This document shows positions 27,650 to 42,553 of a stretch of DNA of 64,000 nt, piece by piece; the stretch's first letter is position 1, and each line of letters starts with the position of its first letter. The notes beneath the pieces were generated by a model, which did not search any database, had not been told where the DNA came from, and worked only from the letters and a program-made list of their open reading frames with translations. Both the position numbers and the translations under genes were made by a program. The stretch comes from Streptomyces sp. L2 (GTDB lineage: Bacteria; Actinomycetota; Actinomycetes; Streptomycetales; Streptomycetaceae): NCBI RefSeq assembly GCF_004124325.1, contig NZ_QBDT01000001.1:2914001-2978000 (forward strand). Direction: 5' to 3'.

Positions 27650-27843
27650 GGGCCGCACGACCCCTTCCGGTGAACCTCGCCGGGCCGGGCGGCCCCCGCC
27701 GAGTCCGGCAGCCCCCGTACAGCGGGGCCCGGAGCCGGGGACCCACCGATCCTGGGGTGAATCGCCCTGTCCCGTCCGGGCCAGGGCCGTAGGGCAGCCT
27801 TCCGAACCATCCGCCCGAACCCGACAGCTAACCCGGTAGGCGG
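27650..27843 (+). ncRNA. c-di-AMP (ydaO/yuaA) riboswitch
   Basis: The leader of the NlpC/P60 gene carries the conserved blocks of this class in order: GGGGACCCACCGATCC, TGGGGTGAATCGCC, CCGTAGGGCAGCC, TCCGAACC, and CGACAGCTAACCCGGTAGGCGG split as CGACAGCTAACC plus CGGTAGGCGG. It ends just before GGAAGGAG. Such switches turn off wall-hydrolase genes in Streptomyces when c-di-AMP is high. Confidence 0.85.
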
Positions 27844-27866
27844 CACATTGGAAGGAGTCGCCACCC

Positions 27867-29189
27867 TTGGCGTCGCACCGCAAGCCGCGCCCCGCGGGGG
27901 CGCGCGGAGCAGGTCTCCGCACCCCCGCACTCGCCACCGCCGCGCTCACCTCCGTGGCCGTGCTGTCCCAGACGGCCGACGCCGCGCCCGCCGCCTCCGA
28001 CGACGGCAGGCCGAGCCGGGAGGAGATCGAGAAGAAGGTCGACGACCTGTACCGGCACGCCGAGTCGGCGACCGAGAAGTACGCGGAGAGGCAAGCGGAG
28101 AAATACGCCGAGAAGTACGCGGGGACGTACGACGCGCCGAAGTACAACGCGGCCAGGGAACGTGACGGCCGGCAGCGCAGCAGCCTCGACGCACTGCGCG
28201 AGGAGGTGGCCCGGCGCTCGGGCCGCCTCAACAAGCCCCGCGCGGACCAGGTTTCGCCCGCCGACGACTCCGCGCCCGTCCGGAGGCGGCTGGACGCCAC
28301 CCCCGCGGTCGACTCGCCGGCCACGTCGCAGAACGACCTCCAGACCGCCAAGTCCGCCGTCCAGCACAAACTCGCCACCGCGCGCGGGATGCTGTCCCGG
28401 CTGACCGAACAGGGGACGGCGCGGCCGGCGGCAGCCGAACGGCACGGCTGGCAACAGACCTGGCACAACCCCGGCCCGGCGCCGACCCTGCAGCCCGACA
28501 CCACGACACCGAGCGCAGGGTTGCCCGGGAACGTCGAGCCGGCAGGGTTGCCCGGGGTGGTCGAGGCCGGCGGGTTGACCGGATCGGTGCAGTCGGCCGG
28601 CCTTCCCGAGGCAATGGGGTCGGCCGGACTGCCGGGGCCGTTCGAGTCGGCCGCCTTGCCCGGGATGGTGGCGTCGGCCCTGCCGGGTTCGGTCGAGCCG
28701 GCCGGGCTGCCCGATGGAACGGGGTCGGCCGGGCTGCACGGTGTGCTGGAGTCGGGCGGGTTGCCCGGGGTGGTCGAGGCCGGCGGCGCTCTTGGGGCGG
28801 GGGGATGGGCCGGGCCGGGCGGGTCGCGGGTCACCAAGGCCGAGAAGGCGCTCGCCTTCGCCCGCGCGCAGATCGGCAAGCCGTGCGTGTGGGGTGCCTC
28901 GGGACCGGGCTCGTACGACTGCTCCGGCCTCACCCAGGCCGCCTGGAAGGCCGCCGGAGTCGCGCTGCCCCGCGCCACCCGGGACCAGGTCCACGCGGGC
29001 AGGAGGGTCGCCCTGGCCGACGCCCGCCCCGGTGACCTGGTCTTCTTCCACGGCGATGCCGGACACGTGGGCCTCTGGCTGGGCGACGGCATGATGATCC
29101 ACGCCCCCAAGCCCGGCACGTACGTCCGCGAGGAGTCGGTCCACTACGGCGGCGAATCCATGATCCACAGCGTGGTACGACCGGCCTGA
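27867..29189 (+). CDS. secreted NlpC/P60 peptidoglycan endopeptidase with 9-residue repeat linker
   Basis: This is a 440-residue protein. It has an export signal (basic N-terminus, ATAALTSVAVLSQTADA), a coiled-coil region (SREEIEKKVDDLYRHAESAT), a linker of about ten 9-residue repeats of the form AGLPGxVEx (residues about 213-315), then the NlpC/P60 domain. The catalytic Cys lies in YDCSGLTQAAWKAAGV, the His in GHVGLWLG, and the third residue in MMIHAP. It probably cleaves stem peptides during growth or spore development. The start is TTG with GGAAGGAG upstream, after a c-di-AMP riboswitch. Confidence 0.92.
   Translation: MASHRKPRPAGARGAGLRTPALATAALTSVAVLSQTADAAPAASDDGRPSREEIEKKVDDLYRHAESATEKYAERQAEKYAEKYAGTYDAPKYNAARERDGRQRSSLDALREEVARRSGRLNKPRADQVSPADDSAPVRRRLDATPAVDSPATSQNDLQTAKSAVQHKLATARGMLSRLTEQGTARPAAAERHGWQQTWHNPGPAPTLQPDTTTPSAGLPGNVEPAGLPGVVEAGGLTGSVQSAGLPEAMGSAGLPGPFESAALPGMVASALPGSVEPAGLPDGTGSAGLHGVLESGGLPGVVEAGGALGAGGWAGPGGSRVTKAEKALAFARAQIGKPCVWGASGPGSYDCSGLTQAAWKAAGVALPRATRDQVHAGRRVALADARPGDLVFFHGDAGHVGLWLGDGMMIHAPKPGTYVREESVHYGGESMIHSVVRPA
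28510..28800 (+). repeat. 27-bp class minisatellite in the NlpC/P60 gene
   Basis: About ten degenerate units of roughly 27 bases (GGGTTGCCCGGGGTGGTCGA-like) encode AGLPG-centred nonapeptides. One unit is shortened (ALPGSVEP), showing unit-length change. Confidence 0.8.
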
Positions 29190-40392: not shown

Positions 40393-41970
40393 TCACTCCC
40401 ACTCGATGGTGCCCGGGGGCTTGGAGGTCACGTCGAGGACGACGCGGTTGACGTCCCGGACCTCGTTGGTGATGCGGGTGGAGATCTTCGCCAGCACCTC
40501 GTGCGGCAGCCGGGACCAGTCGGCGGTCATGGCGTCCTCGGAGGAGACCGGGCGCAGGACGATGGGGTGGCCGTAGGTGCGGCCGTCGCCCTGGACGCCG
40601 ACCGAGCGGACGTCGGCGAGGAGGACCACCGGGCACTGCCAGATGTCCCGGTCCAGGCCGGCCGCGGTCAGTTCCTCGCGGGCGATGGCGTCGGCCTCGC
40701 GGAGGAGGTCCAGGCGCTCCTTGGTGACCTCGCCGACGATGCGGATGCCGAGGCCGGGGCCCGGGAAGGGCTGGCGCTGGACGATCTCCTCGGGCAGGCC
40801 CAGCTCCTGGCCGACCATGCGGACCTCGTCCTTGAACAGCTTGCGCAGCGGCTCGATGAGCTGGAACTCGAGGTCCTCGGGGAGGCCGCCCACGTTGTGG
40901 TGGGACTTGATGTTGGCGGTGCCGGTGCCGCCGCCGGACTCGACGACGTCCGGGTACAGGGTGCCCTGGACGAGGAACTCGACGGCCGGGCCGGCGTCGG
41001 CGATGATCTCGGCCTGCGCCTGCTCGAAAACGCGGATGAACTCGCGGCCGATGATCTTCCGCTTCTCCTCGGGGTCGGAGACCCCCTTGAGGGCGGTGAG
41101 GAAGCGCTCCTCGGCGTCGACGACCTTCAGCTGGACACCGGTCGCGGCGACGAAGTCCTTCTCGACCTGCTCGGTCTCGCCCTTGCGCATCAGGCCGTGG
41201 TCGACGTACACGCAGGTCAGCTGGGAGCCGATGGCCTTCTGGACGAGGGCGGCGGCGACGGCGGAGTCCACGCCGCCGGACAGGCCGCAGATGGCGCGCT
41301 TGTCGCCGACCTGCTCGCGGATCGCGGCGACCTGCTCGTCGATGACGTTGCCGGTCGTCCAGTCCGGCTTGAGGCCGGCACCGCGGTACAGGAAGTGCTC
41401 CAGGACCTGCTGGCCGTGCGTGGAGTGCATGACCTCCGGGTGGTGCTGGACGCCGTACAGCTTCTTCTCGTCGTTTTCGAAGGCGGCGACCGGGACGACG
41501 TCGGTGGAGGCGGTGACGGAGAAGCCCTCGGGGGCGGCGGAGCAGGCGTCGCCGTGCGACATCCACACGGCCTGCTCGGCGGGGGTGCCCTCGAAGAGGG
41601 TGGAGGAGGTCCGGGAGACGTGCAGGTCGGTGCGGCCGTACTCGCGGGCGCCGGTGTTGTCCACCGTGCCGCCCAGGGTCTGTGCCATCAGCTGGAAGCC
41701 GTAGCACATGCCGAAGACGGGGACGCCGGCCTCGAAGAGGGCGCGGTCCAGGCGGGGGGCGCCTTCCTCGTAGACCGAGGAGGGGCCTCCGGAGAGGATG
41801 ATCGCCGCGGGGTTCTTGGCGAGCATCTCGGCGACCGGCATGGTGCTCGGCACGATCTCGCTGTAGACCCGCGCCTCGCGGACGCGACGGGCGATGAGCT
41901 GGGCGTACTGCGCGCCGAAGTCGACGACCAGGACGGTGTCGGGAGTGGCGGCAGCGGGGGTCGATGACAC
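40393..41970 (-). CDS. guaA: glutamine-hydrolysing GMP synthase
   Basis: GuaA converts XMP to GMP. The 525 residues contain a class I glutaminase domain ([20 protein letters not shown], catalytic Cys in [10 protein letters not shown], His in VWMSHGD and [11 protein letters not shown]) and an ATP-pyrophosphatase domain with [14 protein letters not shown]. The dimerisation domain ends [18 protein letters not shown]. The GTG at 41970 fits. A TAGAAT -10 element lies at 42021-42016. It is divergent from the chorismate mutase attenuator. Confidence 0.97.
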
Positions 41971-42021: not shown

Positions 42022-42060
42022 ACGGGCCGGGCGGGCCGCCCATGCTGCGGCGTCGTGGCA

Positions 42061-42066
42061 TACTGT
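42061..42066 (+). promoter_or_regulatory. -10 element of the aromatic leader peptide
   Basis: TACTGT ends 5 bases before the leader ATG at 42072, so the leader transcript probably begins at or beside the ATG. The -35 is not resolved. Confidence 0.45.
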
Positions 42067-42071
42067 GCGCC

Positions 42072-42143
42072 ATGCTCACGCACTCGACCTTCCTCTTTAC
42101 CTATGGCAACCGGCTCGCCGGCTGCCATGGTCGAGCTGCTTGA
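42072..42143 (+). CDS. aromatic leader peptide (23 residues) of the chorismate mutase attenuator
   Basis: The frame reads MLTHSTFLFTYGN and ends GRAA before TGA at 42141. Codons 7-11 are TTC-CTC-TTT-ACC-TAT, that is Phe-Leu-Phe-Thr-Tyr, the residues whose charged tRNAs would report phenylalanine and tyrosine supply. A hairpin overlapping its second half (GGCAACCGGC with GCCGGCTGCC, 42105-42126) and a 13-bp terminator stem downstream complete an attenuator layout. It appears leaderless. Expression is unproven. Confidence 0.6.
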   Translation: MLTHSTFLFTYGNRLAGCHGRAA

Positions 42144-42147
42144 GCGA

Positions 42148-42203
42148 ACGCCAAGCGACTTCCCAGGCGCCCCGGGCCGACAAGGTCCGGGGCGCCTGGC
42201 GTT
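42148..42203 (+). terminator. attenuator terminator hairpin upstream of chorismate mutase
   Basis: CCAGGCGCCCCGG (42163-42175) pairs perfectly with CCGGGGCGCCTGG (42187-42199), loop 11. Outer AACGCC (42148) and GGCGTT (42198) can extend it. GTTT follows. It lies 20 bases after the leader stop and 57 before the gene. Confidence 0.7.
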
Positions 42204-42259
42204 TCCGGGCTCTGTCGCTTCGGGGCAGCCGTCAGCCGTACTCACCAGGAGGCCCCGAC

Positions 42260-42553
42260 ATGACCACGACCACGGAAGACATCACCGAAGGCAGCACGGA
42301 GGACATCAGGGCCGGCGCGTCCATCGCGGACGCCCGCGCGCGGATCGACGCGCTCGACGACCGGATCATCGGCCTGATCCAGGAACGGATGGCCGTCTCG
42401 GCCGTCATCCAGGAGACCCGTATCGCCTCCGGTGGCCGGCGGGTGAGCCTGTCGCGGGAGATGGAGGTGCTCGGCCACTTCCGGGACGCCCTGGGCAAGC
42501 CGGGTACGGCGCTGGCGATGACCCTGCTGGAGCTGTGCCGGGGTCGTATCTGA
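42260..42553 (+). CDS. chorismate mutase (AroQ type)
   Basis: This is a 97-residue stand-alone AroQ chorismate mutase making prephenate for Phe and Tyr. The three-helix signature is ARARIDALDDRIIGLIQERM (Arg and Asp of the first helix), then VSAVIQETRIASGGRRVSLS and REMEVLGHFRDALG, ending TLLELCRGRI. AGGAGG seven bases before ATG 42260 sets the start. The leader peptide and terminator upstream suggest transcription attenuation by aromatic amino acids. A 9-bp hairpin (42677-42700) lies downstream. Confidence 0.92.
   Translation: MTTTTEDITEGSTEDIRAGASIADARARIDALDDRIIGLIQERMAVSAVIQETRIASGGRRVSLSREMEVLGHFRDALGKPGTALAMTLLELCRGRI

Follow-up and report, generated by a model that had tools for sequence, protein, structure and literature searches.

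In Escherichia coli, the target of the pheL-pheA attenuator is a fusion enzyme (bifunctional chorismate mutase-prephenate dehydratase), and the leader has a Shine-Dalgarno sequence. The accessible text on this system describes a leader peptide, control by charged tRNA-Phe and a target with chorismate mutase activity (PMC11802643). In Corynebacterium glutamicum, the aroR leader of aroF, a DAHP synthase gene, contains Phe-Tyr-Phe and is described as responding to Phe limitation (PMC4046766, PMC11802643, accessible parts), and TrpL1 of Streptomyces lividans is described as leaderless, with hairpins (PMC8079986, accessible part). As far as its accessible text goes, a survey from 2005 found no conserved RNA structures upstream of phenylalanine/tyrosine operons in Actinobacteria (PMC1262725), and eight attenuators found by RNA-seq in S. 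lividans form a list which, in its accessible part, is without the gene described here (PMC8079986).

We analyzed a stretch of 64,000 nucleotides from Streptomyces sp. L2 (the window), in which a gene for chorismate mutase (CM) follows a short open reading frame with Phe and Tyr codons. We propose, with a probability of about 0.88, that the region upstream of CM is a ribosome-mediated transcription attenuator that senses the charging of tRNA-Phe and tRNA-Tyr. The basis is the anatomy of the locus, its conservation and its compensatory changes, from which we infer translation of the leader, stalling, termination and the direction of the response. Common to this locus and pheL-pheA are a leader peptide, tRNA-Phe control (predicted here) and a chorismate mutase target, a likeness of layout; unlike pheL-pheA, the target here is a stand-alone CM, and the leader is probably leaderless and has Phe and Tyr codons. 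The likeness to aroR-aroF, compared by its description, lies in an actinobacterial leader and in DAHP-synthase leaders of the present kind in the families f17 and f28; the window gene itself encodes chorismate mutase rather than DAHP synthase, which related leaders precede elsewhere. Attenuators of this kind are known (trp, phe, Corynebacterium aroR). What is new, as far as the open-access literature shows, is the gene, the breadth and the presence of two targets; attenuation of this CM gene was not found in the accessible parts of that literature, which leaves most subscription papers outside, and transcriptome tables may list a premature transcript.

Anatomy of the locus

The features of the locus, in window coordinates, are these:

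40393-41970, minus strand: divergent neighbour guaA (GMP synthase), outside the unit
42059-42064, plus strand: -10-like hexamer CATACT of the putative leader promoter, the better -10 match, ending 7 nt before the ATG
42061-42066, plus strand: hexamer TACTGT, present in the sequence
42072-42143, plus strand: leader ORF of 23 codons, MLTHSTFLFTYGNRLAGCHGRAA, probably leaderless (ATG at 42072, TGA at 42141-42143)
42090-42104, plus strand: regulatory codons TTC-CTC-TTT-ACC-TAT (Phe-Leu-Phe-Thr-Tyr), with TTC at 42090, TTT at 42096 and TAT at 42102
42103-42128, plus strand: protector (1:2) hairpin AUGGCA-A-CCGG / CCGG-C-UGCCAU, -14.8 kcal/mol
42138-42142 with 42152-42156, plus strand: stop-codon hairpin GCUUG / CAAGC, nested in the antiterminator (stem counts and swapped controls)
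42111-42179, plus strand: predicted antiterminator, 42111-42130 paired with 42163-42179 (folds, covariation, swap tests)
42163-42199, plus strand: terminator (3:4) stem of 16 pairs with the tail CGTTTCC, -39.5 kcal/mol (compensatory changes)
42247-42252, plus strand: Shine-Dalgarno sequence AGGAGG of CM, present in the sequence
42260-42553, plus strand: stand-alone CM of 97 aa (Pfam CM_2, NCBIfam PRK07857)

All items named in the initial annotation (leader, codons, hairpins, AGGAGG and CM start) are present in the sequence. TACTGT, the hexamer it had named before the leader ATG, is there, but CATACT two bases upstream is the better -10 match. The terminator had been given as a perfect 13-bp stem 20 bases after the stop; the 13 perfect pairs hold, and together with one G-U and two G-C pairs they make a stem of 16 that begins 19 nt past the leader stop. 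The hairpin over the leader stop codon, the explicit antiterminator and the copies in other families go beyond that annotation. The RNA from the leader to the CM start had a fold energy 6.2 standard deviations below dinucleotide shuffles.

Curated models identify the product of the downstream gene as a stand-alone chorismate mutase (NCBIfam PRK07857, 116.6 bits, cut-off 73; Pfam CM_2), and solved relatives of the protein include M. tuberculosis Rv0948c. A covariance model from 81 close sequences (R1, our first model) gave a single full-length match (2.9e-45) in the 8.07-Mb window genome, its other matches being pieces. The last and loosest model, R3, gave extra weak full-length matches near 4.88 Mb, and the one inspected lies upstream of neither CM nor DAHP synthase. 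Elsewhere in the window, positions 27687-27858 on the plus strand match the c-di-AMP riboswitch (Rfam RF00379, 54.3 bits), and an NlpC/P60 protein is encoded downstream of it at 27954-29189. For S. coelicolor, the accessible text of PMC8079986 reports riboswitches of this class in front of hydrolase genes.

Conservation of the leader

Relatives of CM were fetched from one genome per species, and we used the best 80 of 346, nearly all of them from Streptomyces, so that conservation among them is partly recent descent. The leader was found at all 80 of these loci. Its presence in all of them shows that it is not a product of chance.

Codons were counted over 142 leaders (61 divergent, 81 close). 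At the second Phe codon, 135 leaders have TTT and 7 have TTC; Tyr is encoded by TAT in 136, and a few leaders have lost it (L174, L135, L184). At the first Phe codon, TTC occurs in 117 leaders and TTT in one, while Phe is absent from this position in the remaining 24. The position that separates the two Phe codons is unconstrained (Val, Leu, Trp, Ala and others), residues upstream of the aromatic core vary freely among the fetched leaders, and Gly comes next after Tyr in nearly all. In a few relatives (L016, L025, L029, L078) the frame is altered past the Tyr codon, as would be expected if the first part of the leader alone is read for regulation. The initial annotation had made its reading depend on conservation of the leader frame and the aromatic codons; the frame is kept up to the Tyr codon, and so are the codons. 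The locus has, then, the short ORF with codons of the end-product amino acids that characterizes attenuators.

The codons TTT and TAT are rare: in 30 long window ORFs they account for 6 of 365 codons for Phe and 22 of 406 for Tyr. These ORFs were chosen by length and a GC3 of at least 0.85, a sample biased towards G- or C-ending codons. The stem, too, requires the last T of TAT, whereas that of TTT lies outside it. These rare aromatic codons sit in RNA that is largely unpaired in the fold, yet they are kept.

The codon between Phe and Tyr (window 42099-42101) is ACC in 130 and AGC in 7 of the 142 leaders; it is kept in 137 though it is neither aromatic nor in the stem, and the attenuation model gives no reason for this Thr or Ser codon. 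Trp stands at the variable codon, mostly as FWFTYG, in 16 Streptomyces-type leaders (L120-L123, L127, L131, L132, L135, L136, L138, L141-L144, L146, L147). One leader from a record titled Microtetraspora glauca NRRL B-3735 (L019) is nearly identical to the Streptomyces ones, and the record may be misnamed.

A -10-like hexamer (loose pattern NA[TC]ANT) lies 6-7 nt 5' of the start codon in 135 of the 142 leaders. Among the seven leaders without it, L050 is truncated by a contig end and six have different bases. This conserved hexamer supports the leaderless start of the leader mRNA that the initial annotation had suggested, and which we consider probable.

Compensatory changes in the predicted terminator and antiterminator

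The statistics on stems given here, both shuffles and swaps of partners between sequences, ignore the relatedness of the sequences. In an alignment of 72 divergent sequences built without structure (A3), both sides changed at 9 of the 16 terminator pairs, which was reached by 1 of 500 shuffles, and 102 cells carried such changes against 35.5 in shuffles, with none of the 500 reaching 102. The swap test of terminator pairing gave a p of 0.0002. Among the 81 close rows, covariation of the protector and terminator together was not above shuffles. Hence the stem alignment proposed as a check in the initial annotation gave compensatory changes for the terminator in divergent members and none above shuffles among close ones, and the antiterminator, which it had not spelled out, co-varies too.

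A terminator hairpin precedes the structural gene, though without a U-tract after the stem (the tail is only CGTTTCC) and without a match in a scan for consensus terminators, which found nothing at the stem. A trpL-like leader in the same genome ends in the same tail, which suggests that a poor U-tract is apparently no bar in Streptomyces. That leader (L186, G000:C1:5895294-5895326, minus strand), MFAHTTRNWWWTAPSAAH, is like S. lividans TrpL1. It shares the terminator tail GGCGTTTCCGGG with the CM leader and has a similar predicted antiterminator, which encloses a hairpin just past the stop. The trpE (trpL) attenuator of Streptomyces differs in its Trp codons, seen in the window genome in MFAHTTRNWWWTAPSAAH, and in its target. 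Common descent with the trpE leader was considered and rejected, the likenesses in sequence being only short.

The protector hairpin overlaps the sensing codons, with the Tyr codon in its 5' arm. It is nearly invariant, with a register slip, and therefore shows little covariation; its swap test was weak (p 0.017).

For the antiterminator, both-side changes in the 81 close rows affected 5 pairs and 13 cells, each value reached by none of 500 shuffles, and pair types were not in excess (458 of 500 shuffles). Own partners beat swapped ones in the swap test (p 0.0002), whereas the controls gave p values of 0.93 and 0.12, the first of them for the pairing of segments 1-2 with segment 4, which had no swap signal. 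Counted position by position, bases 92-94 of segment 3 have a partner in segment 2 in 77-79 of 81 rows, but a segment 4 partner in just 48-55. Conservation, by this count, covers the outer bases of segment 3 and not the segment 4 bases opposite them; some segment 4 variants could still pair with segment 3 through bulges.

We also folded the RNA made up to the terminator loop with a ribosome placed at a chosen codon, in 148 rows from 142 loci (six loci twice). The first free base was assumed to lie 16 nt from the start of the P-site codon, as in E. coli toeprints. A ribosome at either the second Phe codon or the Tyr codon was predicted to let segment 2 and its loop form one long hairpin with segment 3, which was not so at the stop codon. 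Rows with an upstream pairing of segment 3 of at least 0.5 numbered 148 of 148 for the second Phe stall, 147 for the Tyr stall and none for the stop codon, where segment 3 was mostly free in all 148; the stall at the first Phe codon (145 of 148) was about as good as that at the second. Taken alone, this mask test is unspecific, as pairing with segment 3 reaches a mean of 0.51-0.55 for shuffled segments too. Segment 3 is partly paired upstream when no ribosome is placed on the RNA (mean 0.38-0.50). Folds for the second Phe stall were on average 7.7 kcal/mol better than dinucleotide shuffles, of which a fraction of 0.048 were as good, and in 87 of 148 rows none of 30 shuffles was as good. The stability of Tyr-stall folds was discarded as evidence, the fraction of mononucleotide shuffles as good being 0.479 in the 81 close and 0.178 in the 67 divergent rows. 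The predicted antiterminator thus excludes the terminator and would be freed by a stall at the sensing codons, with folding that stands out for the Phe stall but not the Tyr one.

A predicted hairpin at the leader stop codon

A further stem extends up to the G of the leader stop codon or stops just short of it. It has at least 5 pairs in 54 of 88 distinct rows (53 exactly at the G), against 29.9 rows in swapped controls (p 0.0005); this threshold was set because swapped controls average 4.09 pairs, and the count omits row L175, missed by the search pattern. With at least 4 pairs, the stem is found in 67 rows against 49.3 in swapped controls, and 21 rows are without any. The variants include UGCUUG/CAAGCG, UGUCUG/CAGACA, GCCUG/CAGGC, GCAUG/CAUGC, UGUGUG/CACACG and UGCUUA/UAAGCG. 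The hairpin lies inside the antiterminator loop and is incompatible with a ribosome at the stop. We infer that it aids closure of the antiterminator and makes the switch sensitive to completed translation.

Co-occurrence with chorismate mutase within the family

At E<=1, R1 matched 360 of 394 family genomes, terminator-only matches included. We searched again 60 genomes with weaker matches, selected by hand from these results, and CM lies 42-312 bases downstream of the element in 58 of the 60 divergent loci; four leaders were checked by eye. The two loci without CM (L176, L178) were taken as chance matches. Among 24 genomes selected from the R1 results for an absent or weak element, 18 have no CM match at E<=1e-5; of the six with one, one match is at a contig end and five carry the leader when inspected (L182 is the same as locus L177). 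The genera g14 (10 genomes) and g7 (5 genomes), all sampled for an absent or weak element, gave no match to this CM at E<=1e-5, and another or very different chorismate mutase may serve there.

Copies in other families and DAHP synthase as a probable second target

We next asked how far the element extends beyond the family. A model from the divergent rows (R2), run on 296 genomes of the class, gave matches at E<=1e-3 in 111, many of them through the terminator alone. Of 23 inspected matches outside the family, 16 have DAHP synthase downstream, 4 have CM and 3 have neither; ten of the downstream proteins were checked with NCBIfam. R3, made from both kinds of leader (CM and DAHP synthase) and run on 394 genomes, matched 104 at E<=1e-5; 36 further inspected places comprised 25 before DAHP synthase, 4 before CM and 7 before neither, one of the latter in the window genome. 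All seven misses have E-values above 5e-10, as do five true R3 matches. These class-level figures cover the inspected matches, the stronger of those listed.

Examples of CM leaders outside the family are VSDRRSYFYYGTGSPAAVGRA (f37), MTRSAYFYGTGFFYEKSPAAVDAV (f31) and VTSAATRFFYGYRPPVAVAAV (f35), and further ones are VLTYAKFFYGNRTPAPVVV (f46) and VLATVSFFYGHRDPVSVTAG (f48), where f37 and the like, as well as f17 and f28, are family labels of the search tool. DAHP-synthase leaders read MQRNFWRFYGYRP...ALR or MRTAFWFWYGDGP...LR in f17 and VRNRFFSYGDAPEAARAGRLAAAA in f28. Across families it is mainly the stems, the start and the aromatic codons that persist. We parsed the loop and terminator arm at 43 of 59 loci outside the family, 33 of them distinct: GGCCC occurs with GGGCC in 16 and GGACCC with GGGUC in 8, no crossed combination was seen, and the remaining 9 lack both loop types (swap p 0.0002).

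DAHP synthase opens the pathway and supplies all three aromatic amino acids; chorismate mutase, another early enzyme, leads to Phe and Tyr alone. Upstream of the Tyr-Gly core, 38 of 41 DAHP-synthase leaders have Trp codons, against 16 of 150 CM leaders (0 of 8 outside the family and 16 of 142 within it, the latter counted at the variable codon only), in a comparison that ignores relatedness. No CM match was obtained in 15 genomes with a DAHP-synthase leader, in a search run without a positive control that is no evidence by itself. According to the accessible text of PMC4281200, chorismate mutase and DAHP synthase form a complex in M. tuberculosis.

The initial annotation had placed the system at streptomycete chorismate mutase; as an exclusive scope this does not stand, since copies occur in other families before CM or DAHP synthase. 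On balance we favor a single homologous actinobacterial RNA family, in six families with CM as target and in two with DAHP synthase. One attenuator scaffold would stand before either gate enzyme, its codons re-tuned to each gene's end products (Phe and Tyr for CM; Phe, Trp and Tyr for DAHP synthase), and the stop-codon hairpin would be a built-in sensor of completed translation.

Proposed mechanism and alternative explanations

In the proposed mechanism, transcription would begin at the leader AUG or right beside it, and a ribosome would start on the leaderless message. With ample Phe and Tyr it would reach the stop codon, open the stop-codon hairpin and cover segment 2, which would leave segment 3 free for segment 4; their pairing would end transcription near 42200-42206. 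A shortage of Phe (read at codon 9, TTT) or of Tyr (read at codon 11, TAT) would stall the ribosome on segment 1. Segment 3 would then be taken up by the freed loop and segment 2, the stop-codon hairpin would close the loop, and RNA polymerase would continue past the antiterminator into the CM gene. With the second Phe codon in the A site the loop would stay free for segment 3, while a Tyr stall would cover part of it. Phe-stall folds stand out from shuffles and Tyr-stall folds of the close rows do not, so these models lead us to expect a stronger action of Phe limitation. A stronger action of Phe limitation, as expected for the CM leader, is described for C. glutamicum aroR in the accessible text of PMC11802643. 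The Phe/Tyr attenuation first read from the window is supported by the comparison with relatives, through codon conservation, compensatory changes and the antiterminator swap tests.

We considered whether the leader might instead act through its peptide, with FxF[TS]YG arresting translation in the exit tunnel, or serving as a drug or metabolite sensor, and not as a meter of Phe/Tyr charging. The conserved Thr/Ser codon (ACC in 130, AGC in 7 of 142) and the Gly that nearly always follows Tyr would suit such an arrest peptide. However, residues upstream of the core vary freely, the core differs by family (FTYG, FFYG, FYYG, FWRFYG, FWFWYG) yet stays aromatic, its Trp content tracks the downstream gene, and Tyr-Gly is also fixed by the RNA stem, all of which makes nascent-chain arrest improbable in our view. 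Another reading is an RNA that binds a metabolite or a protein and contains the short ORF by accident. In its favor, much of the RNA is nearly invariant within Streptomyces, but across families chiefly the stems, start and aromatic codons persist, and the stretch in which the rare aromatic codons are retained is for the most part unpaired in the fold. Rfam gave only sub-threshold matches at the locus and no family at its gathering score; the best E-value, for sbcD (23.3 bits against a gathering score of 40), was rejected, and the T-box family had no match there. We regard a riboswitch or protein-binding RNA as very unlikely.

About equally small is the chance that the terminated leader RNA works mainly in trans as a small RNA. 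A short stable transcript would be expected from the locus, and Streptomyces transcriptome papers, in their accessible parts, report many small or premature RNAs, but the element and CM travel together (58 of 60 divergent loci, with CM 42-312 bases downstream), and 18 of the 24 genomes chosen for no or a weak element are also without a CM match. Finally, the frame of CM is open across the leader in the window, from a GTG at 42065, so that the region could be read as an N-terminal extension of the protein. A good Shine-Dalgarno sequence stands before 42260, and as a conserved feature the extension is refuted, since just 24 of 81 loci keep the frame open across the leader; we give this reading almost no credence. 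Attenuation by stalling at Phe and Tyr codons remains our preferred explanation.

Overall, if this reading is true, attenuation at chorismate mutase governs Phe/Tyr supply in many streptomycetes. Chorismate mutase is the branch point to Phe- and Tyr-derived natural-product precursors, and removal of the terminator would then be a simple way to raise flux. The exchange of target genes with matching codon content would amount to a natural experiment on attenuator tuning.
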